DNA of 64,000 nucleotides from the NCBI GenBank assembly GCA_037043015.1, contig CM073323.1:14009758-14073757 (forward strand), given 5' to 3'. Positions 30 through 59,670 of the stretch are shown here, piece after piece. This stretch comes from Bryum argenteum. Lineage: Eukaryota; Streptophyta; Bryopsida; Bryales; Bryaceae. The position numbers and the translations under genes were made by a program. How positions within the stretch are numbered: position 1 is the stretch's first letter; each line of letters starts with the position of its first letter. The notes under the pieces are model-generated. The model did not search any database. It was not told the DNA's origin and saw only the letters and a list, made by a program, of their open reading frames with translations.

Positions 30-399
30 TTAACCCTTAAACGCCCAAGCAAGCCCGAGGGGCATGATTCCAACAGAATCTTCCCTGTAGCTCTCACTGT
101 ACTCAACATTTCACTCATATTTTGATGTCAAACTGGTCACCTTCTTCTGATGCATTCAAAAAGTGAAATTTCACAATTCAATTCACAATTTGTATGAATG
201 ATTTTGTGCTTTGAAAGGATTGTGGTAGGTAGGTTGAGGTGGTACATAACCTTGTAGGAGGTTGCAAGCTCATCATTGATTGGCCTATTCATGATGCCCA
301 AGTTCAAAAAGTGCACTATTCATGATGCCCAAGTCCAAAAGATGCTGTAATCCAATTTTGGGCTGCCCGTTTCAGACCCCATGGGCGTTTAAGGGTTAA
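30..399. mobile_element. TTAA-flanked non-autonomous DNA element (370 bp subfamily), copy 1
   Basis: Starts TTAACCCTTAAACGCCC and ends with its reverse complement, so the TTAA is present at both ends and the inverted repeat proper begins CCCTTAAACGCCC. No coding capacity is seen. A second copy of the same 370-base length lies at 29620-29989 in the opposite orientation, with clearly matching interior. No duplication longer than TTAA is visible in the flanks, which fits a 4-bp TTAA target site. Confidence 0.75.
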
Positions 400-787
400 C
401 ACCAGTTTTATCGCACGATAGCATGCCGCCAAGCCTGGCGACAAAGCGAGAGAGCAGGAATGAATGGAACGGAACGGAAAGTCACTCCGTCCGTCTCCAT
501 GCGGAAGGAACACGGACTTTTCTCATTCATTCGTTCACTCGCAATTTTAGGATTCACTTTTCCCAGTCAGGCTTTGCAAGTGCTGAGGAATTTGCCATGC
601 AAGGTAGTTGCATCTCCTTCAGCTTTTGTTTTGTTTCTTCTTCTTCGTATGTCGGTAGCTGTCCAGTGCATGCTCCGAACCTACATGTTGTCGTTACTGG
701 GAAGATTGAGTGGTTAGATTATTAGCTACGACAGTTTTAGGGATATGATAATCAATGAATTTGCTTAATTTGCTTAATTTGACGACA

Positions 788-1402
788 TTAACCCTTAAGC
801 GGGCCGAATGTCGAAAAACGACATTTTGGATGACACCAACTTTGGAGAGCCATAACTTCTTCATCCGGACTCCGTTTTGGACGAAATCACTTGGGTTGGG
901 TCCCAAATCAAGTCTAGTTTATGTAATGAAAATCTCAGACCCATACAATGAAGTATGAATTAATGGCATGCATTTCAGTGACAGCAGCCTAGTTTTAGAC
1001 ATTTTTTCCTTTGTAAAATTTAGGGCAGTTTTCACCATTGCAGGGCCATAATTTGCACAAAGAAATATTTCTCATGGTTTTTTTTTGTTCAAGGATGCTA
1101 CTGAGATGAAGGTGAACAACATTCTAATTGGTGACTTTTTCATTGCAATAAGTCTAATGGTAGCATTTTCACTTTAAAGTGAAAATGATGAAATTATGTG
1201 ATCATTTTTGAGTATTAATACATTATGATCTCGCAATCTATGAAGCCTCATGACTCAAAATTTGACCCACATGATGTTCAATATGTCTACGACAAGATTG
1301 TACGGTTGAAATTTGGATAACACACTTTTACCTCCACCTATGACAATGCTTTTGAGGATGTGTTCATTTTACTACAAATGAGTCAAACCATTTAGGGGTT
1401 AA
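788..1402. mobile_element. TTAA-flanked non-autonomous element, degenerate
   Basis: Left end TTAACCCTTAAGCGGGCC, right end TTTAGGGGTTAA. The interior is related to the 977-bp elements at 40734-41710 and 58691-59670 (shared stretches around a cttcatcc..ccgttttgga motif and the gatctcgcaatctatgaagcctcatgac region) and it runs in the same direction as the 58691 copy. It is about 615 bases, so it is probably an older deletion derivative. Another isolated left end of the same type (TTAACCCCTAAAGGTCTA) lies at 1593 with no clear partner. Confidence 0.6.
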
Positions 1403-1814
1403 GTTCTCTTTCTGTTCGAGTTATGAACAAGATGCAGCAGGTGCTTCTTCGTTGCAGATCGATCATCCAACATTCCAACAGTTTTATCCCAATTCAGGAG
1501 CCGATCACTCGTTCAGGTCTCATCACAGTTTTATCCTAGTAATTTGGGTTTCTGATTCCATTTTCAAAATTAGATTCTGAAAAAATAAATAGTTAACCCC
1601 TAAAGGTCTAAGCGTGCCGTGGCGACCAGTAGAATACGGTGTATTTTGGTTGTATTTGGAGTGAATGCACACCTTTAATGGGTTTGAGTTCAAAGAAGAA
1701 GTTGACATTTGAATTAATGCGGTTTCAGTGAGCTATTACGATTCCAGTTTAGAGTTTCTTGTTGGTAGCAAATCCTAGTTAAACTTCCCAAATAAACACT
1801 TAATGATTTCAGTT

Positions 1815-1867
<53 letters not shown>

Positions 1868-2190
1868 TAACAGTATATGCTTTACTGAGGTTAAACACAT
1901 ACAAGAGGCAAAGCCAAATCCCGGTAGGATTTAACCAAATTCTTTTAAAGATTTTCTGAGACTAAACCATCATGCTAGTTTAGCCACTAAAAATCCACAA
2001 CCTCCACCAAGTGTTGGAGGTTCTCCACCAACCGCAACTCCCAAGCGATTCGCTCCTCCGCCTTTGCAAGCTCCTTCTGCTCCGTCGACGTGCTCCCGGT
2101 CCTTCATAATCTCCGATCAATCAGCTCCCTCCAGCTGGTCCTATCCTCGTGTCTCGCTGCAGGTTCTTGACTTGCAACTAGAGCCCTGCC
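1815..2190 (-). mobile_element. 5'-truncated LINE (L1-like) 3' end with poly(A) tail
   Basis: On the minus strand this is a short 3' fragment ending in an A-run of about 51 bases (seen as T at 1816-1866). It is flanked by a perfect 10-bp target duplication GATTTCAGTT at 1805-1814 and 2191-2200, the signature of target-primed reverse transcription. Near its 5' end the minus strand reads ..RTSWRELIDRRL and then a stop, which resembles the extreme C-terminus of plant L1-type ORF2 proteins, followed by an untranslated region. The long pure A-run suggests a fairly recent insertion. Assignment to L1 rather than another LINE is by resemblance only. Confidence 0.7.
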
Positions 2191-5330: not shown

Positions 5331-6661
5331 GCAACTTTCAGGACAAATATAAGATAGAGAGTTCCCGCTCTCTTTCCATGTAATATGGTATTTCATTCTT
5401 TAATATCCCCGAAAAGGGCTTTCAGTGTTGCTAGTCCTTCAGAAAGTGACTAAAAGGGTAATATTCTGGGGCTCCATATATTGCCTATGAACCCTGACAA
5501 CGAAAGTATACCATGTAAGCTTACACTGTATGCCGACCTTAGAATACGGTGGATGGGCGGTTGAAGATTCTCGGCAGAATCAACAGGGAAATGGTACTGT
5601 GGATGAAACGTTGGTCGTCCTGGAGCTTGCTCGCGAAGTAATTAGTGCGAATGAAATAGCTGGCAAATCCCCTGGTCCCCCCACTGATACTTGAATTTTT
5701 CCTCAAGTCACAGGAAGTTTGCACTTTGCACCCATTTTGAGTCTAGATTTTAAAGTAAGGTGCTCGAAAACCACACATGAGGCAAAAGGTAGGTAGTGAT
5801 GTAGCTTTCGACTTTAAACTATAATGTACTCACGGTATACATTTGAGAGTGTGTAGTTTCGAGTACACCTACCATCACCTTCCAATATTCATTATTCTAG
5901 ATAAATTCAAGATTACTCCACTCTCCTACATACTAAACAGATTCTTGTTGCCGCTTCCTAATCTGAAATTCCTGCGGATATGGAGCCTCCTACTATTATC
6001 AAAACAATGATAGTTACATTCATTATTGCTTCATGAAAAAGAATGAATATCTTATTAATCAGTGTGGCGGATGCCTTCCGATGGTGCTGGATGAAACGTG
6101 ATTATTATATTGCTTTCCATCGGCTTTGACAGCTTAGCTAAATATGTTTAAGGAAAGCGCGAGCTAAGCACGTAGATGGAAGGCATAGTAGTGCTATTCG
6201 TGGACGCTCGTTGACATTCATGCATAGACTCGTGTCACGAACTGGTAGCCGTCTCGTCCATCGGCTTCCTGTGACAACTATTGTTCCACATGGTCTCGGC
6301 TTGTAATTTGCCGTTCTAGAGAATTGGTACTCCTGCATCTTCCTTCTCATAACCTTCCTTGAATCTTATTTTCGAAGCAGATTAACAGAAGCTTCACTTT
6401 TCGCGTCCCGCGCTCCTGTCCTTATCTTGGTCCCCACTGTCGCTCACACGGCCCTATGATCGATGATCTTACTGTCGCAGCCAGCTCATTACACCTGCAG
6501 CACACCTTCTAACGGTGACTCGGGTTCGAAATCTCGCACTGTTTCACTGCTCGACTAGTCCATCTCTCAGGCTCCAGCTCCTGTCAATGCTAGCCTTCGT
6601 GCCACCATTGTTTGTGATGCTTTCGAGAGAGTAGAATAGTATTGAATTCGTAGCTCTGTTC
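5331..6661. other. intergenic and upstream region of the first WRKY gene
   Basis: No gene or repeat with recognisable ends. The last ~300 bases before 6662 rise in G+C and C/T content and probably hold the promoter and 5' leader of the WRKY gene. An in-frame TAG lies shortly upstream of its ATG. I could not identify a convincing TATA element. Confidence 0.3.
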
Positions 6662-8542
6662 ATGGATCGAGTTGCTGGATCTAGCGCGGATGAATCAACT
6701 CGCGCGATAGCAGAGTTAGAAATGCGGAGTGGTGATCAGAGCTGCTCCCCTCAACGACCTGCGTCGTCTTCGTTACCAGAAATTAGTAGTTCGTCACCCA
6801 GTAAGGGCGCGCGCAGGCTTGACGGATCCGAGCTCTGTGGGGGCATGGACAGAGAACCGAGCTGCCACCAACTTGGACTGTCCGACATGGATAATCTGCA
6901 GGACTCTTCGGAGATCTTAGCGCAATGGGCTCAGCTCCTGCCGGACACGACGGCATTTGAGCAATGTTTGCAATTCGACGACCTCGACTCGCTTCTAGAG
7001 AATTGTGCCGGTGTTATGGACTTCCCGGAGCAGCAACCGCATTTTGTGTGCACCCCGGATTCAGGGACTCCGGAGTACTCTTCAGGGACCATGTCGCAAT
7101 CCGTAAGCATTGGAGACAGGGACACCAGGGATGATCAAACTATGGCAACACATACTAGTAGCGATTCTGTCGGTACTTCCACTCGTAGGTCACCTGGCAA
7201 GAGAAAAAGCCACGAGCGGCACGTGGAAGCTGTCGCAGACGATTTCGAACCAGAACCTCGACCTAAACATACAATGTAAGCCATTCTCAAGCCTCAGACT
7301 GCATTTGGGCCTAATTTTGCTTCCAACTCCGAGATTGTGCACGAATCGTCACATTTATTTCTCGACCCCTGTTTCTATTGGGCCACGTCTCATATCCACA
7401 TTGTAGTAGCCTTTTATCGTGGCCCTAGTTCCATTGCCAGCCATTCATGGTTGATGTCGAACTACCCATGTTGATAGTGTAAAGTGCATCTGCAGGAATG
7501 CCGGTCTGCAAGGAAGGCACAACAAGAAAAGGCTCTCCAGTACGGAGAAATCTGATAGACTTGCAATTGAAACCACGACCGATGTCGACAATGTAGACGA
7601 CGGGTACAGGTGGCGCAAATATGGTCAAAAGCCAGTGAAGAACAGTGATCATCCCAGGTAGGTTTTAAAACCAATGCTTAATGTATTCGGTTCGCTTCAC
7701 CAGCAATTGAGGTTTTTCGTGATTCTTGCTTGCTTGTAAGCGACAAATGAAAATGGTTGTCTGATTATGAATTGTCGCAATGGTGCAGAAATTACTTTCG
7801 CTGTACGACTCCGAATTGCCCAGTTAGAAAGCAAGTGGAAAGGTGCACGGAGAATCCACGCAATGTGCTTACGACATACGATGGCAAACACAATCACCCC
7901 AGGAATCCAAGTCACAGCACGAGGGAATCAGTTCCGCAGGGTAATGGCGATGAGTTACACTCGTCAGCTCCAATGCGGCAGCCGCAACATCAACATGATG
8001 CTGCTCCCGGGTTGCCGCCAACCAATTACATGTCCCACTCACTATTAGACCACATGCTGACAGGGGCTCTATCAGATAGGACTCGTTGGCCTAAACCCCC
8101 GCCCCCGCAAGCGGCACCACCCTCTCTATCTCAGAGAAGTCTGTCTTTACTCAGAGCGCAACAATTGTTTATGTTACAGTACCAATCTCAGTACCCGTTT
8201 CTGTCTAGCATGCTAAACCTAATGCAGAATTATTCCCTAGCTCAGTCACCTTTTATGGACCCTAGCTTAGCACTACTGGCTGCCCAAAACTATGGCATGA
8301 GGATGAGGGCACATCATCAAGCAAGCTCCGAATCGTCGATCAGAGCCGCGGCCGCAGCTAATGCCGCTTTCAATCAGCAGCAGCAGCAGCAGGCGCAGGC
8401 AATGAGGTCGACGGCACCACCGTTGTCAAGAGCGCAGCACCGGATTTTGCGGATGCAGGAATTGATGGGCGAGAAGCATGGTTCAAGTCAACATCCTACA
8501 AGTTCGCAGCAACCTGAGAATCTAGATTTAGAAGAGCCTTGA
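6662..8542 (+). CDS. WRKY transcription factor (single C-terminal-type domain), 509 aa
   Basis: Three exons: 6662-7275, 7496-7657, 7789-8542; GT..AG introns of 220 and 131 bases. The spliced product is 509 residues. The WRKYGQK heptad is at residues 244-250 and is followed by a zinc finger of the C-X4-C-X23-H-X-H form (C264, C269, H293, H295), the pattern of group IIc and of group I C-terminal domains. The second intron falls in the conserved position after the PR dipeptide (residues 258-259). The N-terminal 200 residues are acidic and Ser-rich with a GKRKS basic patch. The C-terminal region is rich in Gln, Met and Ala with a six-Gln run near residue 455, plausibly a transactivation region. 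The protein should bind W-box DNA in the nucleus. The start is the first ATG after an in-frame TAG. A paralogue with the same layout lies at 16503. Confidence 0.9.
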
Positions 8543-10071
8543 GCACGGCACGTCTCTGTGAATATCAAATTCCAATTTTTTTTTGTTAATATTCATTCTT
8601 AATGACTTGCGAAGAAATTGTTGCCACTCTGCCCAGATTTTCATGCGCTTATTGAGCAAGCTTTTTATCAACTGTGTGCGATTTTCGCGCTCACTTGTCC
8701 ATCAATCAGAGGTGTCCAGTTTGTCAATGCTAACCCTACAGGATCATATCGAGATAATTCCTTGAAGATTTCGACCTAGAGTGTGAGACTTTCTTGACCG
8801 GATCATGCATCAGAATTACTGCATGCAGGACGGTGCTAGAGGAGAAGTGAAAAAGGATGAGGAATGTTAGAAAACGACGAGGCCCTGCCTATCATACAGA
8901 ATTGAAGCAATCGGTGGTTATGATACATGTGGGGTGATTGATCGTAAATTTTGATTTGCGGTCGAGGGGAATAAGACCAGTTGCTCTTTCATGTGCCAAA
9001 TCCGAAACATATAGCGTAGTCTAGGTCCTCTCCATTCCTCTGCTCAAATGCAGCTTCAATATCCACCATGTTACTATCTTTCTCCCATTTGCTGCGTCGT
9101 TCTCTTGTCAAATGCGAGATTGTGAAGTAGATAGGGTAACTGCCCATGTAAATCATCATCATATTGTCAAAAAGACCGTGCTACTGTAGTGCAGGAGTTT
9201 CATGAACCAGTCAGATTACATTCCCCTTTGTATGTGGGGGATGCCGACTTACAAACAGTAGAAGATAGCATATAGTAACAGTATTGCAATCAATTCAGGG
9301 GCTTTGATTCCCCTTCTTGTAGGGCAGGGCAAGCCACCAAGCTACCAAGCTACCTGGTGAGCACTCACTTGAAGCGACAGAATTTTCAAGGAAACGAACT
9401 GGGACTCAAAAGTCTTCGGCTTGAAATTCGTGCAAACTTCGAGAAGACCGTGACGCACTAGTGGCTCCCATCACCGACAGTGTCTAGAATACTCTTACTA
9501 GCTTCCTTGATCAGATACTCAAATTTGACCAAGTTTGACTCCAGTCTTTTCAATGATCTTGCATGGTGAGGCTGCCCATGTTTCAATGGCCGCAGAATAT
9601 CGTAAGGTAGTACTTGTTGAAGTACTTGTTGTGACAAAAGAAATTTTGAAGGTGACTGCACTCTCGAAGATAGAGCATCTCATTGTCGTTATATTTCTTT
9701 GTTTGGAACCGATTGTGCATGAAAGTGGAGCATTTAGAAGTGTGGTACGCATCAATATTGATATTCACAAGCTGCACTTTCGGTTTATAGTGTTAAAAAT
9801 GGTATCATTCTGCTTTTCAATCACAAATCACTCTTGAAAGTTCCTCCGAAAGTACCATCGAAGTATGGGGGTTGGTGGATTGATATTGTCGTTGGCCCTT
9901 CACTAATTAACATTTTTTGTATCACAAAGAGATAAAGGCATTGGACTTTTTTCCAGAGTCCTACAAGAATTTTGAGGCCAGAAGCGTATCAATTCCAGGA
10001 AGTTGATACAGAATTTTCACAGCAATAAACACTCTATGATTGTGCTTTCATGAGATATTTGTTAACCCCTA
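8543..10071. other. 3' flank of the WRKY gene and unassigned sequence
   Basis: The first part is probably the 3' untranslated region of the WRKY transcript. Beyond that I see no gene, tRNA or element with paired ends; short open frames here lack codon structure or homologous features. Confidence 0.3.
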
Positions 10072-10902
10072 ATGTCGTAAAGAGCCCAAAACGGGTCGTT
10101 TGATGCCTGGTCAGCCCCTTATTTACTTCTTTAGCTTGTATGAAATTGGAAACTTTTGCAGGTTGTAGAGTTTCTTCATACCTTTTCAAAAACTCATCTC
10201 ATGTCTCAAAATTCCTCACTCTTTAGGAGACATTCACGGTCAAATTTTAAAAACACTGTAAAAAATCTGCCCAAATTGCCCAAAATGTGGTATGTGCTCG
10301 TTTATACTCAAAATCTGCCCAAAATCAATAAGATTCGAAGAACTTCAAAAATTCACCAAAAATTGAGATTTTATTTTTTTCAAGTTTTGTTTTGTTCTAC
10401 TTGGGCTCAAGGTTCAAGGCATAATCTCACGGTTTGGATCTTTCATCCAACTATTCTTCACATGTCAGATTTATTATCAAAGAGGGGCCTTGGAAGTTGA
10501 AGTTCAGCATACCTCCATTTGAAGATTCAAGCATTTCTTTAGGTTTTGTGGGTTGCATGAGGGTAAAAATTGCATAAACATGTTACTAACTCACTTAGGA
10601 ACAAAAATTTGAAGAGCCTCACTTCAAATCTACTCTTGAAATTGGTTTTGTGGGCTCAAAAAGAACTTAACAAACCTTTGAGGGAAAAAAACTCTATTTT
10701 CAACTTTGAATGTTACGATCTCACAATTGGTAACAAATTTGAAACTAAGTTTTGGTACACACGTACATGAACAAGTTAGGTATAAGATCTTAGGGTTGTA
10801 TACTTAAGATAACATCAAAAGTTGAAATTTTTCATCTTGCATTGAAAGAATGTGTTTTGAAGAGCTTAGGCAGTTCTGGGGGCTTTTGACTTTAGAGGTT
10901 AA
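10072..10902. mobile_element. TTAA-flanked non-autonomous element
   Basis: Left end TTAACCCCTAATGTCG, right end GACTTTAGAGGTTAA, about 831 bases. The interior has the 'gatctcac..ttggtaac..' and 'aagatcttagggttg' motifs found in the elements at 13275, 28392, 31744 and 43346, so it belongs to that subfamily. Non-coding. Confidence 0.55.
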
Positions 10903-12446: not shown

Positions 12447-12611
12447 TAACCATGCCTACAATATGAGAAATTTTGAAACATGAATGTTCAGTCCTACTAG
12501 AAAGATATGAGTTCTATTAAGTTCCACCTCCGTAGCCCAGAAGTGAATAAATGGAAGCATGACCAAAAGCAAAATGAGGGCATTTGGGCTTCACTTGACT
12601 TCAGGGGTTAA

Positions 12612-13274: not shown

Positions 13275-13858
13275 TTAACCCCTAAAGATCCAAGAGGACC
13301 AAATCGGGCTTTTGCTATTTTGGGCAGCTTAGATGAATAGGTTATAAGTAATATTTTTGCCTAAATTTTTTAATGGGTGCTCCCTATACTGCAAAGTGTA
13401 TGTGGTAAAATTTACAAAGCCAAATTCCAATTTTTGAGTCTTCTACAACAATTCTTGGTTTGCGAGCCGAACTGGGGCAGTTTAAATTTAGTATTTTTTT
13501 GAATTTTTTTTTTGGAAATATGTTCATGACCAAATCACTACTTAAGTTCCAAAGGGCCCCAAGTCAAAAAGTGTACCAATTTTACAAGGGCAGCCTCCAA
13601 AAGTGTCAAAAATAATATCAACAATGCCCAAAAAAACTTCGTAAACAAACTTTGGATGTTATAATCTCTCAAATGGTAAACATCCAACGGTCAATTTTTA
13701 TATCAGATACTGAAAATTGGCTTAGGTACAAGATCTTACGGTTGGAAGTTAAGAAAAGAATAAAAAAATTGTTTCGCACCTTGAAGTGCATAGAGGTAGA
13801 GAATTGGAGTTTTGAGGTTTTAAGCTCCCAAAAACACCCAAGGATCTTTAGGGGTTAA
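13275..13858. mobile_element. TTAA-flanked non-autonomous element (584 bp)
   Basis: Left end TTAACCCCTAAAGATCC, right end GGATCTTTAGGGGTTAA: a perfect inverted repeat of 17 bases including TTAA. The interior is very close to the elements at 28392 and 31744 (shared GAGGACCAAATCGGGC..TTTTGC start, a 'tgtggtaaaattt' block, the 'catccaacggtc' and 'agatcttacggttgga' motifs). Non-coding. Confidence 0.8.
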
Positions 13859-16340: not shown

Positions 16341-16502
16341 GTGCTGCCCAGCGCAATCTCTCTTCAAAGGAGGGCGACACTCTAACCAAAATTCCCCTAA
16401 CGCTGTGGAATGATGCGCGCACGACAGTCCCACACCGAGCTTTAAGACCTTTTAATACTCACTCTCTGACTTCTGCACTCGCACGGTCTCGTTGGGCTCT
16501 CG

Positions 16503-18804
16503 ATGGCCCGGAAGATGGAGGGCGAGAAGATCACCAATTCCACTGACGAGCAACCCGCAGTGGCTTTGGAGGCTGCGGACTCGCCCAAGGATCCGTCAAC
16601 ATGGGCGCAGTATGTGCATGACGCTCAGTACTTCGATTTGAGTTCGTTTTCTCCCCGGGGTCTGACCGTGTCGCCCCGCGGTGAGATGGGTGGTTTCCCC
16701 GACCTGGGGATCTGCCCCTCGCCACTGTTCTCTGATCAGTTCAAGCTCTTTCAGACTTGGAGTACGGCAACACCCAAGGTGAACAATTCCGAGTCTTCTG
16801 CGGTGGCCAACCCAACACCGCTTGCTGTCACCGCGCCCCCACCCGCGCCTGTTGCACCAGCAGCTGATCAGGCGAAGGAAGCCCAGAACATGGAGTTGGC
16901 TAGGGTCACGAACTGTGATGGTTTATCAACGTGTTCAAGCGCTGACAGTGACCCTTGTGATAGTAGTGATCTTTGTAAGGTCGGTACTAGTGAATCCACC
17001 GGCTCCGGAGAGGATGCTGGGAAGGGACGCAAGCGTAAGTCCGTCGAAAGGGACACAGTGACTAATGATGGCAGCGAAGGCGAAGATGTCGAAGGAGAAG
17101 ACATAGAAGTCGAGAACCGAGCTCAGAAATCGTGAGTTGACTAGTTCCACTGCTTGGATCCCTCTGGAATTTGGGCCGCAATCGTACCTGTGGTTGTGTA
17201 GAAGACTGATTGGGTTGTTCATGGTAGTCTTTGCTGAATACTCACCTCCATCGATTTTGCTGTCGAATGTCAGGGTTAAGCAGCAGAAGATGAAGGGTCC
17301 AAAGAGGCTACGGGAGCCCCGTTATCAAATTAAAACGAGAACTGAAGTTGATATCATGGACGACGGCTACAAATGGCGAAAGTATGGTCAGAAGCCTGTG
17401 AAGAACAGCCCTCATCCAAGGTACTTTGTTCTTCCTCGTGCCGTGGCACCCGCATGTTCATGAGAGGAATTAGGGGCAAGCATTGAAAAGAGAATCTCTT
17501 TAGCGCTGGTATTAGAGTCCTGATGGTAGATCCATGAAAGCTGCTCAGTGTCGTTTAGCTGTCTGCAACTTTACGTTACTTCACCCGGCGAGAGCGGAGA
17601 TCGTAAGAGACGCGAGCCTGCACGAACCTGAAGTTCCGCCGTACGCATAGTAACATTATAGTACTTGTAGTCGTCTCCAAGTTGTTGAAGATGATCAAGA
17701 AGCAAGTTCATACGAAGATTCATCAATCTTGGATTCGTTTGTTAAGAGGTTCCAACAGCTGTTTAGAGCGTCGGCATGCAACGTTTCTCAGTTTTATCGG
17801 GAGTTGTAGATCGAAGTCGAAACCCGAAGTCGGCATTAACCGGTTGAGGCGAGTGCCTTCCTAATGGCTACAATACCCTGATGAGTAAGATAGTGCGAGT
17901 GTAGACCGGAGAACAGGCTCACAGTAACAGACTTGTTGCATTAGAATGTGGAGGAGAGGAATTGATCGAGAACGATCGTTTCGTGTGCAGGAACTATTAC
18001 CGCTGTACAACTACGAATTGCCCCGTGCGCAAACGCGTGGAAAGATCGACGGAGGATCCAGGCTTGGTAGTAACGAGCTACGAAGGCACGCACACGCACC
18101 CTAAAGTGACACAACCGAAGCGGACACCATCCGGCAATTACTCCACATACGAACCTGCAGAGAGCTTATCTGACGCTCTAAACCAGCTCAACAACAGACA
18201 ACATCAAGCTGCAACGAATTCGACCCCACCGATGCCGCCAGCTGGGTTGGGACTCCCCAATCTCGGCCAGCTCTTCCCAGGATGGGGTCAAATGATGAAC
18301 CGGCAGGCGATGCCACCCGTGGGACCATCTTTCAACGACAACGTGGGTCTGATGATGGCGTACCAAATAGTGCGGTTGCAATGGGAATTGCAGGCTAAGG
18401 TGCAGCAGTTCATGAGTTACAATGCGCAGCAAGGTTTCGGAGCCGGACTGCCGAAGATGAACCCTTTCATGAATCCCTTTCTGGATCCTCTGGGTTCGGC
18501 AATTCCAGATTTTAATGCCTTGCTCTCGAACTACGGGGAGGGATCGGAGGCCGAGGACTTCACTCAGGAGAGACCTAGTTTGCCAAAAGTTCCCGAAACC
18601 TTGACTAGTAGCCTTCTCTCTCGACGTGCCGCCATGCGATCTGGTAGTCCCTTGAATCCGAACTTGCAAAACGCTATGAAGATGCAGCAGTTAATGAGCC
18701 AGGCCATGGCTGGCTTCCATCAAGCAGCTCTCGATCAACAGGACCATAGCTTAGGTGAAATAGCTGATCAGGGCCTCGCCCCCGATCAGCGCCGCAATCA
18801 ATAG
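16503..18804 (+). CDS. WRKY transcription factor, group IIc-like, 529 aa
   Basis: Three exons: 16503-17131, 17274-17420, 17991-18804; introns of 142 and 570 bases. The product is 529 residues. A basic GKGRKRKS patch precedes the domain. [17 protein letters not shown] leads into [12 protein letters not shown], a context typical of group IIc. WRKYGQK is at residues 244-250 and the C-X4-C-X23-H-X-H zinc finger uses C264, C269, H293 and H295. The second intron again follows PHPR. The C-terminus is Met/Gln/Asn/Pro-rich (for example [13 protein letters not shown]). Compared with the gene at 6662, intron positions, phases and motif numbering are identical, so the two are tandem paralogues with divergent flanking regions. 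The expected role is nuclear binding of W-box promoters in stress or developmental control. Confidence 0.92.
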
Positions 18805-24754: not shown

Positions 24755-25320
24755 GGGCCGCTTCACACTATGGCCGTCCAAGCCGAGAGGCCGTGGAATT
24801 GAGAGTCCAAACTTTGTTGAGAGTCCAAAGAAATTTACTGAAAATAGCCAATAAAACATTGTAATTGGGGCCTTTGGTCGGGCATAGTTTGAAGCCTCCA
24901 AAGGCCAAGCCCAAAGTCAAAAGCTTTGGCCATGAACTCCCATGGCCTCTCACCTTGGACGGCCGTAGTGTGAAGCCTCCATAGGCCAAGCCCAAAGTCC
25001 AAACCCATATCACTTAATTCCTTGTCCAAGGCATCTTTTTGATCTAATAGCCAAGATCTTGTCAGTATTTGAAAATTTTATGAATAAAATGTGACGGCCT
25101 CTCGACCATAGTTTGGGCTTGCAAAATGCAAGACCCAAACAAATGCCTAGAGGCCATCACCTTGGTCAAAAAGCGTTGCCACATAGCCCATCTGGAGAGC
25201 GACGGCTGGTGGACTTTGGCTTTTAGTGTGAAGGCTCGAGAGGCCGAAACTAGGTTTCCTGCAATTTCATTGGTTGAAATTGACGGCCTCTTGACCTTCG
25301 GCCATAGTGTGAAGGGGCCT
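24755..25320. mobile_element. PIF/Harbinger-like MITE (566 bp)
   Basis: Left end GGGCCGCTTCACACTATGGCC, and the right end in reverse complement AGGCCCCTTCACACTATGGCC, form inverted repeats of about 21 bases. A 3-bp duplication TGA flanks it (24752-24754, 25321-25323). GGGCC-type ends with a 3-bp target are typical of PIF/Harbinger (Tourist) MITEs, though TGA is a departure from the usual TWA. The centre contains internal repeats of 'gaagcctccaaaggccaagcccaaag'-type sequence, which create meaningless Gly/Leu-rich open frames. Confidence 0.7.
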
Positions 25321-25329
25321 TGAGAATGA

Positions 25330-25642
25330 GAGAAGCCTTTCATGGGGAGGCAAGACCAACAAATCTCCAATCCAATTTACTCATATTTTGAGCCGAATTG
25401 CCTCCATGGGCCACTTGGAGAACACATTAAACAATTTATAGAGTGGGTCAATCTTCTAACTTATTGAGCGGGGGCGGTGTCATAACTTATTCACCACCCA
25501 TTATTATATAATTTTAGAAAATTGGCATTGACTCCCCATGTAGAGCTCCTCATGCCAATTTCAAGAATTTGACCAATCACAAGAGAGGACTTAGCCATGA
25601 ATTGGCCCCATCAATGGCTTGGCCCCTTGCATAAAGCGGCCC
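25330..25642. mobile_element. related PIF/Harbinger-like MITE (313 bp)
   Basis: The left end GAGAAGCCTTTCATGGGGAG and right end GGCCCCTTGCATAAAGCGGCCC match the longer element at 26985-27486, and long interior stretches are shared (for example 'aatttcaagaatttgaccaa' and 'gccatgaattggccccatca'). Target duplications are not clear. It lies end-to-end with the element at 24755. Confidence 0.6.
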
Positions 25643-26771
25643 TCAGAAAGGGCTGATTTCCTTAAACCTCCAAGATATTTCAAGTTCAATGCACCCATTG
25701 TGTAGATTCAAGAGTTTGTTGTTTGCTTTGGTACACCTACCACTCCTACTTCCAAATTCATAATTGATTCAATGATTTACGATTCAAGTTCCTATAAGCC
25801 TTGAGTATATTGTATACTTGGTACTAACAATATTTGCAGTGATTTCCTTTGTTTCAGTTTAAGAAGCTTGCTTATCCAAAATTCTAACTATTATTGGGCC
25901 TAGCGCAAGGAACATATTTGGGAATCCATATGTCAATTCTAGAGATTCTTTAGAATTTTCTTTCCAATTTTCTTCGATTGTGAGGTTTTTCCTTAGAAGT
26001 GTCGAAGGTAATAAATCATCTATCGTTGGGAAAACTAGTTTTTCCCATCTGAGACTAATTGAGGATTCTAAAAGACTCTAGAAGGGGCCTCCTTTCAAAT
26101 TTTAAATTTTGGCAAAGTGCCACCTGTTAGCCGGGTAATCCATGGAGATGCACAAGGTTGACTAACAAGATAAGTAAGAAGGGAGTATAGACAACGAGGT
26201 ATCAGATTGATTGGGTAGTACGTGAAGAGGGTACATACCATCAGGTTGTAGTCAAAGTATGAGGAAGTTAGTGTAACCCTCGGCCAGGGATACGGTCCTC
26301 GATCCAAGTACTGTAGGGAAACTTGATTGCTAGATACATAGTTACTATGGGAGTCCTCGGCCACGGTTTAAGTCTCGGTGGAAGATATTCATAGCCACCC
26401 TAACTAAGTCCGAAGACTACGTTAGTGCTTCCACAAAGTGATGGTTCTTTGGTGTCTCACGGCCAACTGTGTCCTGATGTTATAATACACAATATCTGTT
26501 TACGAAGCTCCTCTGCTCCTCTTATGGCTGTTGTCATAAAACCAAGGGAAACCCCACAAAGCAAAATACGACACGAGCAAATAAGGATGTGTTGTGCAGA
26601 GGACCAAAATACCAAGTGAGGGGGGAGAACGGGGAGAGAGAGGTAAAAACTAATATTTAACTAATTATGGACTTATTTCCAACTTATGGACTTTTGGCAA
26701 CTAATGAAGAATCTTCGTTTTATGACTTTTATCACCGGCCAGCCGATACATCCCCACATCTGCGACTTTCA
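25643..26771. other. unassigned sequence
   Basis: No gene recognised. The minus-strand open frame at 26095-26364 has no domain signature. Confidence 0.25.
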
Positions 26772-26904
26772 AAAGGCCATAACTCACTTAAATTTTGTCC
26801 AAATCAAACATATGAGGTGTTTTTTGACATGTACATTTTTGGTAAATGTCAAAAAACACTTCATATGTTCAATTTGAACAAAATTTGACTGAGCTATGAC
26901 CATT
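26772..26904. repeat. inverted repeat able to form a ~59-bp hairpin
   Basis: The arm at 26772-26830 (aaaggccataactcacttaa..) reappears as a diverged reverse complement at 26846-26904, with a 15-base loop. By eye about 50 of 59 positions pair. It could be the core of a foldback MITE or a source of hairpin RNA. Confidence 0.7.
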
Positions 26905-26984
26905 CAAATATTACTAATGGAGTCTTAAGGTAATATCGGCGGACAACCGACATTATTTCTGGATTATGAATTTGTTCATAATTA

Positions 26985-27486
26985 GGGACGCCTTACATGG
27001 GGAGTCAAGACCAACTAATCTCCAAGCCAATTCACTCACATTTTGAGCTCAATTGGCTCCATGGGCCACTTAGAGAACACATTAAAAAATTAATAAAGTG
27101 GAGGCCAATTCCCCCATGTGTAAAGTCCTTGGGTCGATTTCTAAAAGGAGAAACAAGGCCATGGGGCCAATTCGTATTATTAGCTACATTCCATGCTTTC
27201 GATTTGTTCACATTAAAGTATTTTAGTGAGATAATACTTTCAAATTAAAATCAAGAGACGGCCTCTAGGCCATGAATTGGCCTTCCATTCTTGTATCTCC
27301 CAACTTTTGGAGCGCGGGCCGTGTCATAACTTGTCCCCCACCCATTATAATATAATTTCAGAAAATTGGCCTTGACTCCCCATGTAAAGCCCTTCGGGCC
27401 AATTTCAAGAATTGGACCAATCACAAGAGAGGATTTGACCATGAATTGGCCCCATCAATGACTTGGCCCCTTGTGTAAAGCGGCCC
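26985..27486. mobile_element. PIF/Harbinger-like MITE (502 bp) with TTA duplication
   Basis: Left end GGGACGCCTTACATGGGGAG; right end, reverse complemented, GGGCCGCTTTACACAAGGGGCC. Perfect 3-bp duplication TTA at 26982-26984 and 27487-27489, the canonical PIF/Harbinger target. Interior shared with 25330-25642 but longer. Confidence 0.72.
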
Positions 27487-27489
27487 TTA

Positions 27490-28391
27490 GTTAAATATCA
27501 GTTTAGAGATGTACACGAGATGGAGAAAGAAGCAAGTTTGTGTTTTATTGTATAAATATTGAGTTCAAGGCCATGTGGTAGGAGGAATAAAACCCTTAAA
27601 TCCTCGGAGGCGTGATAACATTTAAACGAAGTTGTGTTGTGCATGTCCTACACTTAAACAAAACTATGTTGTTAGCTACCAACACACTTTGAATTTTGTG
27701 CAATATTGAAAGTGAGCTTTTCAATGCAAGTGTTTTGGGAGGCCTGCTAATACAACTATACAAGTAGTCTAAGTAAGATGTATCATGAACTTCTCTCATA
27801 ATATTACCTCATAGATGAGAGTGTTACATTTCTTAATGGGTCAGCATAGTGTTGATGTGACAAAGACTTTCGTCAACTATTATATATGCCTTGGATTAAG
27901 TGGCACCCCAAATATGCTCATCTTATTTAGAGAATCATAGATTGAAAGATAAGCTTAGTCGTGACAACTTTCTGCTAAGGTAAGCCACTAGGAAAACTAA
28001 CATGACCATTTGACTGATGACAGATTGTATCCTTCAGACCCTGCAACTATGAGACTACCAAGCTTTCGAACCGTACAACAATACGTAGAGTATCTATGTG
28101 AGAGAGAGAAGTATATGCTTGGGTATACAAAGTCGTTGAGGTCTTCTCACGTTGAAATTGGTGGAAGTAGTAAGCAATATAGTCAAAAGCATACTAGAGT
28201 GGAGAGCGAAGGGAGGATTGCATGCGCCAACTTCCATCGGAAGTTTCAGTCAAGAGAGTCAGTGCATTTTGCAACTACACATACAATTTGAATTGAATGT
28301 CAAAATTAGGAGCAAGGCGTATGTTCAAGGACAACATAGAGAGGAGTTGTTGTAGTTAAAGGTTGAAGTATAGGCTTTAGAGATCACTTGT
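27490..28391. other. unassigned A+T-rich sequence
   Basis: Nothing recognised. The open frame at 28010-28291 has no known domain. Confidence 0.25.
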
Positions 28392-29328
28392 TTAACCCCT
28401 AAAGATCCAAGAGGACCAAATCGGGCTTTTGCTATTTTGGGCAGCCTAGATGAATAGGCTAAAAGTAATACTTTTGCCCAAATTTTTTAATGGGTGCTCC
28501 CTATACTGCAAAGTGTATGTGGTAAAATTTGCAAAGCCAGATTCCAATTTTTGAGTCTTCTACGACAATTCTTGGTGTGCGAGCCGAACTGGGGCAGTTT
28601 AAATTTATTATTTTTTTGAGATTTTTTTTTGGAAATATGTTCATGACCAAATTACTACTTGAGTTCCAAAGTGAGCTAACTCAAAAAGTTTGTGAATTTC
28701 ACAAGGGCAGCCCTCAAAAATTACAAAAACAATCTTTACAATTTCTAATAATTTCTGAATTAACTCTTACAAAATTTGTCAAAATTTGAGGTTTTGGAAT
28801 TTTCCAAATTTTTTTTTCTCAAATTTCACAAACTCATAAAGGCACCTACTCCTCATCTGGATTTTTAATTAAACCAAATATATCGAAGGAAATGCATGTT
28901 TTACTATATCAATGTTTTTAGACCTTCTTCTAAGAAATAATTTGCATGAAGGTCATACAAATGGAATGAGTTTCCAAAATTTTGCATGAGCGTACCCAAC
29001 TTGATTATCTACATGGAAAAAAATATGGATATTATGTTTGGGGTAAAAATCTTCAATTTAACCTATGCTCCATGGAAACAATGTCTCACAAGCAATGCCC
29101 AAAAAAGCTTCTGCACCGACTTTGAACGTTAAGATCTCACAAATGGTGAAGATCCAACGGTTGAAATTTCACATGGTAGTACAAATAGTAGGTGGGTTTG
29201 AGATCTTACGGTTGAAAGTACAGAAAAACAATAATTTTTTTGACCATATCTCAATTCGAACAAGGTGGTAGAAAATCACAATTCTTGGTTTTGGAAGGCC
29301 AAAAAACGCTAGGATTTTTAAGGGTTAA
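28392..29328. mobile_element. TTAA-flanked non-autonomous element (937 bp)
   Basis: Left end TTAACCCCTAAAGATCC, right end GGATTTTTAAGGGTTAA. The first ~250 bases are nearly the same as the element at 13275, and the rest resembles the copy at 43346, so it is a longer member of that subfamily. Contains the 'gatctcacaaatggtgaaga' and 'gagatcttacggttgaaagt' motifs. No transposase. Confidence 0.75.
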
Positions 29329-29619: not shown

Positions 29620-29989
29620 TTAACCCTTAAACGCCCTTGGGCTCTGAAATGGGCAGCCCAAAATTGGATCACAACATCTTTTGGACTTGGGCATCATGAA
29701 TAGTGCACTTTTTGAACTTGGGCATCATGAATGAACCAATCAATGATGAGCTTGCAACCTCCTACAAAGTTATGTACCACCCCAACCTACCTACCACAAT
29801 CCTTTCAAAGTACAAAATCACTCATACAATTTGTGATTTGAATTGTATAATTTCACATTTTGAATGCATCACAAGAAGGTGACCAGTTTGACATCAAAAT
29901 ATAAGTGAAAAGTTGAGTACAGTGAGAGCTACCAAGGAGATTCCGTTGGAATCAAGCCCCTCGCGCTTGCTCGGGCGTTTAAGGGTTAA
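29620..29989. mobile_element. TTAA-flanked element (370 bp subfamily), copy 2
   Basis: Inverted-orientation copy of 30-399. Ends TTAACCCTTAAACGCCC and GGGCGTTTAAGGGTTAA. Flanks differ from copy 1 outside TTAA, as expected for independent insertions into TTAA sites. Confidence 0.8.
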
Positions 29990-31743: not shown

Positions 31744-32325
31744 TTAACCCCTAACCATCCTTGAAGCCCGAAATGGGTTTTTGCAATTTCGGGCAACCTA
31801 GATAAAGGTGTTGAAGGTAATATTTTCTGTCTAATATTTTTACTTGGCGCTCCTTATACTGCAAAGTGGGTGTGGTAAAATTTGCAAAGTGGAATTTCAA
31901 TTTTTGAATATTCTAGGGCAATTCTCGATGTGCGAGCCAAGATCGGGCAATTTAAATTTAGGATCTCAAAAAAGAATTGGAATTATGTTCATAACCAAAG
32001 TACTACTTAAGTTCCTAAGGGATCTTGGTCAAAAAGTTTACCAATTTTACAAGGGCAGCCTCCAAAGTTTCCAAACCAATCTTGACAATGCCCAAAAAAG
32101 CTTGGGAGACAAACTTTGGATGTTATGATCTCACAAATGGTAAACATCCAACGGTTCATTTTTTTGAACAGTAACTAAAAATAGTCTTAAGTACAAGATC
32201 TTACGGTTGGAAATTTCAAAAAAAGAAATAACTTTGGTTTACAACCTTGGGAATGCATAGAGGTAGAAAATCGTAGTTTCAAGGTTTTGAGCTCCCAAAA
32301 ACACACACGGACGGTTTGGGGTTAA
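31744..32325. mobile_element. TTAA-flanked element nested in the CACTA element
   Basis: Left end TTAACCCCTAACCATCC, right end GGACGGTTTGGGGTTAA; 582 bases, almost the same length and interior as the element at 13275. Its position inside the CACTA boundaries makes it either a later insertion or cargo carried when the CACTA element moved. Confidence 0.75.
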
Positions 32326-40380: not shown

Positions 40381-40395
40381 TGGCGGCCACTCCTC

Positions 40396-40699
40396 TTAAC
40401 CCTAACCCTATTCTAATTTATTCCAACAACCATTTTGAATTTCTTAACAACTCCTCCCCTAAAGTTTTTCAAGATCCAGATTACACTATTTGGGGTTCGC
40501 GCGCAAATAAGATTCTCCCTGCTTTGAGCATTACGATCTCACTAATGGAAAAGAATCAACGATTTAAATTTTACAAGTGACTAAAAACTCAAGTGAACTT
40601 TAAGATCCTACGATTGGATCTTCTAAACATTGCTTCAATTGAGGCTTTACAAGCATGGAGAATTTAGGCAATTTCGCATGACGGATATCTAGGGATTAA
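40396..40699. mobile_element. TTAA-family element, degenerate (304 bp)
   Basis: Left end TTAACCCTAACCC, right end TAGGGATTAA. The interior has the family motifs 'cgatctcactaatgg' and 'aagatcctacgattgga'. The CCCTAACCC at its start is part of the element end, not a telomere repeat array. Confidence 0.5.
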
Positions 40700-40733: not shown

Positions 40734-41710
40734 TTAACCCCTAAACGTCCCAGCCTATTTTTAGCAGAAAAGCACATTTCCATAAAAATCGTCATAGATG
40801 AAAATGAAGAGAAGCTAATAAGATCTCAACCGTACAAACTTGTAATAGACTTATCAAAGATCATGTGGACCAAAATTTGAGTCATGAGGTCTTATAGATC
40901 CGGAGATCATAACATAGTAATACTAAAAACAAACTCCAAAATTTCATCATTTTCACTTTGAGGTGGAAATGCTACCAATATACCTATTGCAATGAAAAAA
41001 TCACCAACTAGAAAGATGTTCACCTTCATCTTAATAAGTCCTTTACCCAAAAAAATTCATCAAAAAATTTCTTGGATCAAATAAAAGCCATGCAATGGTA
41101 AAAACGCAAAAAAATTTACAAAGGAAAAATAGTCCAAATCTAGACCCTTTGCATTCAATTTCATGCCTTATCTTCAAAACATCTTCGATCTTGTTAAGGT
41201 TTCTACCACTTAGACTAGACTCTAATTGGAGGCCATTCCAAAAATTAAGTTGAAATCCAACGGTGGATGAAGGAGATATAGCTCCTCAAATATCATCCAT
41301 TTTCTCACTTTTTCTCATTGACAAAACATCATTGCAAATCCAATAGCAAAATCATTTGGATCAAAAAACTTCTCACTACAAAGTTGTTAAGAATCACCTT
41401 AAAATTATGACCATGAAAAAAAAATCATGTAAAACTATTTTAAATTTCACATAATTGGCTTGCAATGGTAATACATGCCCCATGCTTGGAAACCCAAAAA
41501 CAAGAGCTGCCTTCACTAAAGTGCATTCCATTAATTCATACTTTATTGTATGGGCTTGCAAAATTTACAACACAAACTAGACTTGATTTGGAACCCAATA
41601 CAAGTGATTTCATCCAAAACGGAGTTTGGATGAAGGCGTTATGGCTCTTCAAAGTTTCTGCCCTCCATCCAAAATGTAGAAAAACGACATTGGGGACGTT
41701 TAGGGGTTAA
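40734..41710. mobile_element. TTAA-flanked element (977 bp subfamily), copy 1
   Basis: Ends TTAACCCCTAAACGTCCC and GGGGACGTTTAGGGGTTAA form an 18-base inverted repeat. The copy at 58691-59670 is reversed and so similar that an 81-codon open frame (41465-41710 here) translates identically in both. That frame runs into the terminal repeat and has no known domain, so I regard it as incidental. The right TTAA is shared with the next element. Confidence 0.85.
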
Positions 41711-41948
41711 CCCTTAAACGTCATATGCTTTCCTGATACCACACCCAAAATCTCTTTTAAACTCCATTTTTAGCATTATTCTATTTTTAATTTGCTTGAG
41801 CTCTATTCTAAGAAAGTATAGATCTCTTTAAGGTGCTCAGTTTGGAATTCTAAAAATTCCATTTGGTATAATGGAGTGTAAGTTATGAGCAAGATTCTCT
41901 CAAAAAAAAACCCAACCCCTCGGGCTGGGTCTGACGTTTAAGGGTTAA
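41707..41948. mobile_element. small TTAA-flanked element abutting the 977-bp element
   Basis: Left end TTAACCCTTAAACGTCA, right end TGACGTTTAAGGGTTAA, 242 bases. Its left TTAA (41707-41710) is the same TTAA that ends the preceding element, exactly what an insertion into a pre-existing TTAA would leave. Confidence 0.8.
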
Positions 41949-43345: not shown

Positions 43346-44290
43346 TTAACCCCTAAAAATCCAGGAAAGCCGATTCGGTTTTCTGAGATTTCGGGCAGCT
43401 CATTTTAAGCATTTAAACTGATATTTTTGCCTAAGATTTTTATTGGGTGCTCCACATGCAGTAATGTGTATGTGGTAAAATTTTCAAAGTCAAATTTTTA
43501 TTTTATAACCTTCATCTAGAAATTTTAGGTTTCAAGTCCAAATCGGGCAGTTTAAAATAATTTTTTTAATTTTTTTTTTTTTTTTTTAATATGTTCATTA
43601 CCAAATTACTATTCAAATTCCAATGTGTCCGAAGTCAAAAAGTTTACCAATTTTACAAGGGCAGCCTCCAAAACTTTCAAAAACAATCTTCACAATTTCT
43701 AGTAATTTTACAATTTTTCTTTCAAAAATTGCCAAAATTCGAGATTTTGGATTTTTTCCAAGATTTTTTTTTCAAAATTCACATTATCATAAATGCACCT
43801 TCTCACCGTCGAGATTTTTCTCAAACTAAATATATCATACGTGGTGCTTGTTTTACTATATGGTTGTTTTTAGACCTTCTTTCATAAAATATTTTACATT
43901 AAGGTCAAAAAGTGGAATTGGTCTCTAAAATTTTGCATGAGCATAACCAACTTGAATACCTACATGAAAAAAAATGAGGGAAAAATATTTGGAATAACAA
44001 TCATCAAGTTGCCCTTGGCACCATTTAGACAATGCCTCTCACGCAGTGGCAAAAAAAAAGTGTTGGTCAAACTTTGATTGTTATGATCTCACAAATGAAA
44101 AACATCCAACGGTTGAAATTTTGACCAGTCCTTTGTATACAAGTTAGGTACAAGATCTTACGGTTCAAAGTCTAAAACCAGAAAAAAAAGTTTCTCCATT
44201 TCCCCATCTCCCAACGAAGGTGAAAAATGGCAGTTTTTGGTTCTGGAGGTCGAGGAACAATGAAGGATTCATATGAACAATGAGGGGTTA
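43346..44290. mobile_element. TTAA-family element (~945 bp), right end mutated
   Basis: Left end TTAACCCCTAAAAATCC; the right end reads GAGGGGTTAT, one base from TTAA. The interior aligns with 28392-29328 over most of its length, including the 'tacaagatcttacggttcaa' block. Confidence 0.65.
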
Positions 44291-57400: not shown

Positions 57401-57659
57401 GCTTCCAGAAGCGCGTCTCGATCAAGTAGCGCTGCTGAAAGCGGCTCTCGCGGCGAAAGCTGAAATGGTCGATGACCTGCGTGAACCACTCCACCGTGTA
57501 CGTCACGCCCGGCGAGCGCAGAGAAGTGGGGGGAGGCGCATTGCGTTGAGCCTGATGGTGGGGGAACCTGGTGGTTGGTCTCCTCCGCGCTGTTGCTTGG
57601 GCGCCATGAGCGAGCAGAAACACGCACAGGCACACCCACAAGACGCGCGTCGTGGCCAT
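54483..57659 (-). CDS. S28 family serine carboxypeptidase (lysosomal Pro-X carboxypeptidase-like), 524 aa
   Basis: Ten exons, in transcript order: 57659-57276, 56981-56795, 56598-56465, 56385-56273, 56185-56062, 55885-55727, 55619-55464, 55371-55292, 55121-55072, 54670-54483. The frame closes to 524 residues. The N-terminus ([22 protein letters not shown]) is a clear signal peptide. The S28 core begins at TQVIDHF. The HRYYGKS box is at 129-135, the nucleophile Ser187 lies in GGSYGG, the acid Asp440 in [10 protein letters not shown], and the His in EGAHHLDL (465/466), so the triad is complete. NYTG is a likely glycosylation site. Family enzymes remove residues after a penultimate proline in acidic compartments; a vacuolar or secreted location is inferred. 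An upstream in-frame ATG at 57686 exists, but starting at 57659 gives the better signal peptide. The last intron holds a MITE. Confidence 0.93.
54766..55022. mobile_element. MITE inside the last intron of the S28 peptidase gene
   Basis: Inverted ends CAGGACATCCCCCAAGCTGG and (reverse complement of the right end) CAGGATATCCCCCACGCTGG extend about 30 bases. A 7-bp direct repeat AAATCGG lies at 54759-54765 and 55023-55029, so a hAT-like origin is possible. It leaves the splice sites at 54670 and 55072 untouched. Confidence 0.7.
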
Positions 57660-58690
57660 GGTGGGATGGTGGAATTGGAGCTGCAAGGGACGAGTAGAGT
57701 ATCATGAATACGCCATCGCCATAGCTGCTGCTGGCAATCTGCAACAAGGTTTGCACTGCAAGATAGCTTCAGTGGTGATCTAGCAAAGAGGCCAAGACCA
57801 GCCCCATCATTCCATGTCGACCCATAGAATTGATAAATGTCGGAACTCCCAATTTTTGCAAAGTATCCTTTTTCTTTCTTTCCTACTTTCTTTCTTTTTT
57901 TCTCTTTTTTTCTTTTTTTTTAGTTTATTTTAAAGGCACAGAACATTTGTACGGAAATTACATTTAACTATTTAACTATTTCTAGAGTGAAAGCATCAGA
58001 ATTAACACATCGCCGTTCTTTCGATGGTTTTGTGAACAAGATACAATCTAAATATGGAAATGTAATTTGTAAAAAGGGATTCGTAAAAATTTCAAAAACG
58101 CTCAATTCCCACAATGTAAAGTTTCAATTTAGAGGAAAAAATGACTTTTAAAGAGAAGAAAATTTTGAAATTTCTTCTAGTCCAAATTTCTTAAATGGGT
58201 CTGGATCTAGTTAACTTTGGCAGATTACCATGTAAATATAAAAAGGGCCCAAATATGGAGGAGGAGTTGTGTAGAGCAAGCTCATGAAAAGACTAATGTA
58301 GTTAAATTTAAACCTTTTAACTCTGCATATAAACAAGAATGCATACAACCTCTTTTAGTTACTAGATGTTACTTAGTTATTAGAATTAGTAAGAAGTTGA
58401 GATAGGAAAAGTGAAATTAACACATGGAAAACAACAAAAGTGGTAAGATCATCTCTCCTTTTTGTAACCCATGTGCAACAATAAGAAGAAACAAACCTCA
58501 TTTCAACTACTATGTACACATACCCCCTAGGGTTAAATTCATGGAGGTATTTGCATAAATATCTAATCTGGAAAAGAGTCGTTGCACAAACCAAGTGCAT
58601 TCTTAAATTGGTCAATATGTAAAGTATGAGTACCTCACAAGAAAAAACTCTAGATATTTCAATAAGTGGTTAGTTATCCCAAAGAGGACT
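57660..58690. other. upstream region of the S28 peptidase gene
   Basis: Contains a C/T-rich microsatellite (57868-57922). Promoter elements are not evident and no other gene is recognised. Confidence 0.3.
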
Positions 58691-59670
58691 TTAACCCCTA
58701 AACGTCCCCAATGTCGTTTTTCTACATTTTGGATGGAGGGCAGAAACTTTGAAGAGCCATAACGCCTTCATCCAAACTCCGTTTTGGATGAAATCACTTG
58801 TATTGGGTTCCAAATCAAGTCTAGTTTGTGTTGTAAATTTTGCAAGCCCATACAATAAAGTATGAATTAATGGAATGCACTTTAGTGAAGGCAGCTCTTG
58901 TTTTTGGGTTTCCAAGCATGGGGCATGTATTACCATTGCAAGCCAATTATGTGAAATTTAAAATAGTTTTACATGATTTTTTTTTCATGGTCATAATTTT
59001 AAGGTGATTCTTAACAACTTTGTAGTGAGAAGTTTTTTGATCCAAATGATTTTGCTATTGGATTTGCAATGATGTTTTGTCAACAGAAAAAGTGAGAAAA
59101 TGGATGATATTTGAGGAGCTATATCTCCTTCATCCACCGTTGGATTTCAACTTAATTTTTTGGAATGGCCTCCAATTAGAGTCTAGTCTAAGTGGTAGAA
59201 ACCTTAACAAGATCGAAGATGTTTTGAAGATAAGGCATGAAATTGAATGCAAAGGGTCTAGATTTGGACTATTTTTCCTTTGTAAATTTTTTGGCAGTTT
59301 TTACCATTGCATGGCTTTTATTTGATCCAAGAAATTTTTTTGATGAATTTTTTTTGGGTAAAGGACTTATTAAGATGAAGGTGAACATCTTTCTAGTTGG
59401 TGATTTTTTCATTGCAATAGGTATATTGGTAGCATTTCCACCTCAAAGTGAAAATGATGAAATTTTGGAGTTTGTTTTTAGTATTAATATGTTATGATCT
59501 CCGGATCTATAAGACCTCATGACTCAAATTTTGGTCCACATGATCTTTGATAAGTCTATTACAAGTTTGTACGGTTGAGATCTTATTAGCTTCTCTTCAT
59601 TTTCATCTATGACGATTTTTATGGAAATGTGCTTTTCTGCTAAAAATAGGCTGGGACGTTTAGGGGTTAA
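58691..59670. mobile_element. TTAA-flanked element (977 bp subfamily), copy 2, reversed
   Basis: Near-identical to 40734-41710 in reverse complement, including the same 81-codon incidental frame (58691-58936, minus strand) and perfect TTAACCCCTAAACGTCCC ends. Flanks outside TTAA (..gaggact and agtgtcc..) are unrelated to those of copy 1. Such high identity implies recent movement of one or both copies. Confidence 0.88.

Follow-up and report, generated by a model that had tools for sequence, protein, structure and literature searches.

Which transposons gave rise to the short TTAA-bounded elements in a 64,000-nucleotide stretch of the Bryum argenteum genome, and what moves them? The stretch (contig C3, positions 14009758-14073757 of a genome of 258.8 Mb in 25 contigs) is called the window here, and its elements are named by their first position (Table 1). 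They are almost certainly cut-and-paste DNA transposons of the piggyBac superfamily, the short window copies being non-autonomous and dependent on full-length relatives at other genomic sites, which mobilise them in trans.

Superfamily and target site of the elements

The ends of the elements are marked by the exact 12-mer TTAACCCYTAAA, which occurs 18 times in the window, nine times in each orientation, against a mean of 0.08 and a maximum of 1 in 200 first-order Markov copies of the window. Genome-wide, 23,184 exact ends (11,520 + 11,664) compare with 401 (207 + 194) for a reversed-pattern control. All of the at least twelve TTAA-bounded elements claimed by the initial annotation are present, with some coordinates and ends corrected; seven of the twelve carry the exact 12-mer at both ends, and the ends of five are imperfect (Table 1). 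From the common start that it described, TTAACCC(C/T)TAAAcg, a shared TTAACCC-type end stands, but the "cg" after TAAA is not general. The outer flanks, said to differ in every case, do so over the 8 bp compared except in the pair 40734-41710 and 41707-41948, which have one TTAA in common. One start lay 10 bases off (10072 should be 10062), the 615 bp of element 788 were absent from the sizes listed, and 1732, used as the right end of that element in its comparison with full-length elements, was rejected because 1402 is correct.

A genome search with the Pfam model PF13843 (DDE_Tnp_1_7) returned 776 candidates; all 116 that were scored pass the curated cut-off (best E 7e-82), and none of 14 control genomes contains a match. 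Among the first 20 transposase loci fetched, 13 full-length elements of 4.5-6.5 kb with TTAACCCYTAAA-type, TTAA-bounded ends were delimited around PF13843 matches, their boundaries being picked by eye. An unbroken transposase frame of 867-915 aa is found in six of the 13 (L010, L014, L018, L019, L022, and L023). The other seven loci comprise L015 and L016, which have a variant end pair (TTAACCCCTCAAGG, TTAACCCCAAAG), and five with one clear end or none; transposase loci beyond these hold frames of 908-1,331 aa. No transposase was found in the window itself, as first noted: the frames of the 13 full-length elements gave no match there to a transposase or to the accompanying open reading frame 1 (ORF1) described below.

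The L019 transposase, compared with the PDB by phmmer, aligns over about 400 residues with piggyBat (9c0f, 1e-26, the best match) and T. ni piggyBac (6x67, 6e-26). In this one protein, TIDE, MDNY, and MRGVDVSDQ stand opposite LDE, MDNY, and MKGVDRADQ of piggyBat. The three aspartates in such LDE, MDN, and GVD contexts are presumably catalytic. Short inverted repeats beginning CCY are present, and clades A, B, and C of the moss transposases all have a C-terminal CxxC...CxxC...C...C...H motif, a putative zinc domain referred to here as the cysteine-rich domain (CRD). Clades A and B are only about 35-40% alike and therefore represent a diversified lineage, not one arrival.

The initial annotation had proposed testing longer copies with the same ends against DDE_Tnp_1_7 and had named piggyBac or Sola3 as the source of the elements. 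The TTAA target is common to both superfamilies, and TTAA duplication alone cannot separate them, which leaves room for Sola3 or another TTAA-using superfamily. Such an origin is nevertheless extremely improbable: the same ends enclose PF13843 matches in 13 full-length elements, and the L019 transposase, the only one compared, can be aligned with piggyBac transposases of solved structure. Sola3 was rejected as the main reading on the grounds that PF13843 transposases sit within the same ends, no Sola3 model having been used. The piggyBac assignment thus rests on full-length partners that encode PF13843 transposases and carry the ends of the window elements.

The TTAA target also proved correct, since empty sites in the same genome hold one exact TTAA and no longer duplication. 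They come from three sources: (i) an autonomous element of 5,758 bp (L018:1499-7256), whose frame is 910 aa long, lies within another copy of element 788 (L018:1315-7683), and its flanks, joined with one TTAA, align gaplessly with window 788-1402 and differ from it at 3 of 615 bp; (ii) the 4.95-kb insertion of L009 has an empty counterpart with one TTAA in the window at 27082; and (iii) joined-flank queries from seven window elements gave 296 candidates, of which 40 places were scored, 25 for 29620-29989 (95-99%) and 15 for the 40734/41707 pair (95-97%). Ten places from each of these two sets were read; every one of the 20 carries a single TTAA at the junction and agrees at 119-123 of 124 bases. 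The other five queried elements had no place among the 40 scored of 296, which is not evidence of absence. Most simply, the empty sites are uninserted paralogous copies.

Exact ends are numerous enough for about 11,000 elements, in addition to hundreds of transposase candidates. L026 and L027, on different contigs, are 99.84% identical over 5.7 kb. The 40 scored copies of element 40734 (of 6,693 candidates) are all full or near full-length matches at 93-100%, and 12 of the 40, query included, reach 98-100%. A search with ORF1 gave 58 matches with the same score by hand count among 150 scored of 324 candidates, a same score not being proof of identity. Near-identical copies imply recent movement in some families; an active or recent plant family would, by the initial annotation, be notable. 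Contig C1 (44.1 Mb) looks depleted: it holds none of the 58 same-score ORF1 copies against 9.9 expected (P ~2e-5 if scoring is even over contigs), 5 of the 116 scored transposases, and, over its first 6.9 Mb, only 100 listed exact ends, a density of about 14 per Mb where the whole genome has about 90.

Transposases, left ends, and the cysteine-rich domain

One transposase was initially thought to mobilise every window element. All share the outer CCCYTAAA, and cross-mobilisation of related ends occurs among DNA transposons. Beyond the first ~8 bp, however, the ends split into sets that match clade A, clade B, or neither. Elements 13275, 28392, 31744, and 43346 have terminal stretches of up to ~410 bp in common with clade A and, judged from these stretches, look like internal deletions of clade-A elements. 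For elements 30 and 29620, the similarity to clade B is confined to 34-45 bp at each end, while 41707-41948 matches none of the 13 full-length elements and has a left end nearly equal to that of the B-like L057. For 40734 and 58691, no match was found among the 13 full-length elements compared, and 788 has a single 40-bp match. Subterminal sequences and palindrome arms (see below) differ between the sets and match different clades, A or B, and a residue of the CRD varies with the palindrome arms inside clades B and C. A single transposase for all elements was rejected on the differences in end sets and palindrome arms and is improbable; the window elements are probably served by several.

The left ends contain a palindrome of 6-5-6 layout. 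In 70 distinct sequences among 84 left ends, it is perfect in 11, against 0.4 in shuffles (maximum 3), and reaches an arm match of at least 5/6 in 32, against 6.3 (maximum 14). Five of the 84 ends (L031, L032, L016 twice, and L013) miss the 12-mer rule and were added by hand; four of these are perfect, and seven perfect ends are left without them. In 24 of the 32, the first base of the palindrome is bp 17 (numbered after the TTAA). Its arms (bp 17-33) vary between families yet are complementary in these ends, i.e., they covary. In T. ni piggyBac, according to the available part of Chen et al. 2020 (PMC7351741), a CRD dimer occupies bp 17-33, with a narrowed groove centred near bp 25, and the remaining protein grips bp 1-16. 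The moss palindrome lies in the same register as this CRD-dimer site. In the moss complex, a transposase dimer would hold the two tips (bp 1-16). The 17-bp palindrome of the left end (bp 17-33) would be bound by the C-terminal zinc domain, also as a dimer, and this would give the complex an asymmetry like that of T. ni piggyBac. Bp 20 would be read by the CRD residue three past the second cysteine, so that families with different CRDs would recognise different ends.

In elements of clades B and C, the amino acid at the third position past the second CRD cysteine varies together with the base at bp 20: K with A, and V, I, or S with G. The rule fits 48 of the 49 usable elements among 56, many of which are near-copies. 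The seven unusable elements are L033 and L093 (no left end), L035 (no CRD), L067, L069, and L071 (neither), and L037, which has S with G and was left out of the count because its palindrome is shifted by one base. The rule was written down after the first set and then tested on 30 further elements, 26 of which had an end at the register; 25 fit and L077 does not. Relaxed end-finding rescued three more, all of which fit, for a total of 28 that fit, one exception, and one without an end; over all 56 elements it added five, namely L041, L055, L079, and L129, all four with a damaged TTAA, and L131 (new end), after their CRDs had been seen. Without L131, the 35 distinct rows consist of 13 K/A, 21 V/I/S with G, and one R/C. 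When CRD columns are compared with the six half-site positions, the K/V-bp 20 pair ranks first (z 18.2; next 9.6), with shuffles that ignore relatedness and with L131 included at a wrongly placed end.

Common descent without recognition could also yield this match, because elements of the same lineage have both residue and base in common; the z-scores do not correct for relatedness, and the tree available is small (15 rows, 3 of them K). This explanation nonetheless appears unlikely. Both classes occur within each of clades B and C, and the tree, made without the CRD region, needs three class changes, two of them forced by starred branches. Cysteine loops that are nearly alike save for the K/V position are found in both clades, and the rule held on elements fetched once it was written down.

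ORF1, a second coding domain

Upstream of the transposase lies ORF1, a conserved domain of ~82-102 residues that ends in WPD. Of the 20 transposase loci fetched first, 18 have it; the other two, L013 and L021, have an ORF1 match 5.9 and 5.4 kb upstream, respectively, on the same strand and outside the fetched stretch. Substitutions fall mostly at third codon positions, and the ratio of nonsynonymous to synonymous substitution rates (dN/dS) is 0.08-0.26 in nine of 18 comparisons, dS being saturated in the other nine. No relative of ORF1 was found among IMG/VR contigs. What ORF1 does is a guess: it probably serves the same machine as a module for DNA binding or assembly.

The relation of ORF1 to the transposase takes several forms. 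The two make up one continuous frame in L028 (1,331 aa) and in L031 and L032 (1,056 and 1,059 aa), the last two having been selected because ORF1 and transposase seemed to be in one frame. An in-frame three-exon fusion model is predicted for three of the four clade-B elements tested (L009, L017, and L022). These cases favour the idea that ORF1 is no separate protein and forms the N-terminal part of the transposase in every clade, through splicing or frameshifting. That idea is plausible as a minority view, since no fusion model passes for L010 and clade A is arranged differently. There, ORF1 occupies a separate overlapping frame, and the transposase ATG lies in the +1 frame, 7 nt past the WPD codon. 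It opens a MPPRR...KR.KQ-like peptide, followed by a conserved 77-94-nt intron, which leaves the frame unrestored, and then by MEWDGIPVRRS or alike. The clade-A ORF1 frame stops 0-29 residues past the junction in the six elements shown, with tails that are unlike one another.

The picture that emerges, to which an even chance may be given, is that of a bipartite machine whose extra domain is a separate overlapping-frame protein in some clades and fused in others, and whose CRD +3 residue sets the base at bp 20 (K-A, V/I/S-G, and perhaps R-C). A number of observations weigh against this picture or the piggyBac reading behind it. The case was made on sequence, with no transcript, protein, or excision observed. 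The transposase is split into at least two frames in seven of the 13 full-length elements, by introns or damage, and ORF1 is broken or partial in L024 and L025. No convincing relative of ORF1 was found in Pfam (weak matches, E at least 0.03) or the PDB (E at least 0.3), the matches being chance-like. No autonomous partner was found for the ends of 40734, 58691, and 788. Many left ends pair at only 3-4 of the 6 arm positions. The CRD rule covers clades B and C only, as the cysteine loop of clade A is spaced differently; L077 (R with C) belongs to neither class; and three of the 21 V/I/S rows have T, not C, at bp 30, so that only bp 20 is strict.

If true, the pairing is a natural protein-DNA recognition code with which families separate their ends and keep the architecture of insect piggyBac. 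It would explain how a single genome can house many piggyBac families that leave the copies of the others in place. The moss offers piggyBac transposases with their ends from a plant, a further domain, and the hypothesis that one residue and one base govern end specificity.

Two further features of the coding regions were seen. In transposases of clades B and C (L010, L017, L022, L031, and L032), the DDE domain is preceded by a conserved FWG...FYGPWGTF...VPE-like stretch; Pfam scans of two clade-B proteins (L022 and L010) gave no match for it, and it is possibly a small beta-barrel. A tandem repeat in a full-length element (L010:2266-2765) is open in several frames and translates as short repeated units.

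The window and known piggyBac systems

The plant host named at the outset is a moss by its LEAFY gene, which has a moss-type DNA-binding domain. One locus with two exons was found, and one exon scores 244 bits to 4bhk, which we take to be LEAFY of Physcomitrium patens, and at most 174 bits to the other four LEAFY chains. The typing of moss LEAFY by D312/C345 is assumed here. Genes of the window include a class-II DAHP synthase, an S28 peptidase, and two WRKY genes at 6635-8542 and 16470-18804, about 10 kb apart, possibly a local duplication. At window 25320-27490 lies a dispersed repeat of the host, of which the window holds copies at 86-87%, and L009 is inserted in another copy elsewhere. Six end-like TTAACCC-type motifs (1593, 12611, 20866, 43176, 48580, and 52882) have no partner end that could be found in the window and are probably decayed or truncated elements. 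Two elements placed end to end with a single TTAA were seen twice, at window 41707-41710 and at L016:1413-1416, an arrangement consistent with a newer element having entered the TTAA that borders an older one.

Table 1. Features of the window (exact: TTAACCCYTAAA at both ends).
Position	Strand	Feature	Ends	Remarks
30..399	+	Non-autonomous piggyBac, clade-B-type ends	exact	370 bp; 92% identical to 29620-29989, inverse orientation; strand by left-end palindrome
788..1402	+	Non-autonomous element	imperfect; one mismatch at left end	615 bp; empty-site TTAA at 1215
10062..10902	.	Older TTAA-bounded element	imperfect; one mismatch per end	841 bp
13275..13858	+	Non-autonomous, apparent clade-A internal-deletion derivative	exact	584 bp
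28392..29328	+	Non-autonomous, apparent clade-A derivative	exact	937 bp; 74-75% identical to terminal ~410 bp of 5.7-kb L025-L027 elements
29620..29989	-	Non-autonomous, clade-B-type ends	exact	370 bp; joined flanks match 25 genome places
31744..32325	+	Non-autonomous, apparent clade-A derivative	imperfect; 1 and 2 mismatches	582 bp
40396..40699	.	Old TTAA-bounded element	imperfect; weak at both ends	304 bp; 50-102 bp in common with clade-A ends
40734..41710	-	Non-autonomous element	exact	977 bp; 99.2% identical to 58691-59670
41707..41948	-	Non-autonomous element	exact	242 bp; one TTAA in common with 40734-41710; flanks of the pair match 15 genome places
43346..44290	+	Non-autonomous, apparent clade-A derivative	imperfect; right TTAA decayed to TTAT	945 bp
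58691..59670	+	Non-autonomous element	exact	980 bp; near-identical inverse copy of 40734-41710
58711..58727	+	17-bp imperfect palindrome, putative CRD-dimer site (example)		bp 17-33 of left end; 5/6 arm match at common register
27082..27085	.	Empty TTAA in host repeat		other repeat copy holds 4.95-kb piggyBac of L009

In the literature found, so far as the available portions of the texts extend, piggyBac is described mainly from animals. It is known from plants (PMC10140906, available part), and the fern Ceratopteris has 1,230 PiggyBac-annotated pieces amounting to 122 kb (PMC6890710, likewise in part). A grapevine survey of 2008 does not count piggyBac among plant superfamilies in its accessible portion (PMC2528002). 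Within a scope that left subscription journals and Repbase outside, no literature was found on the structure, transposase, or copies of moss piggyBac, on an ORF1-like domain, or on a CRD-bp 20 rule.

T. ni piggyBac has CCC-type ends, as the moss elements do. By the available part of its structural description (6x67/6x68; PMC7351741), it also shares with them the TTAA target, the DDE domain, the C-terminal cysteine-rich domain, and a CRD-dimer palindrome of the left end at bp 17-33 with a two-fold axis near bp 25. The moss elements differ from T. ni piggyBac, with its 594-residue chain, in transposase frames of at least 867 aa and in ORF1 as an additional domain, either split or fused. In the moss, the palindrome arms vary between families, and the copies run to thousands. 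piggyBat of Myotis lucifugus (9c0f; PMC11707139, as far as its available text goes) resembles the moss elements in its DDE domain and in an imperfect palindrome on the left end, with none on the right. The paper ascribes to piggyBat a CRD fold unlike the T. ni one and an unrelated palindrome; the piggyBat left end has three motif-palindrome repeats.

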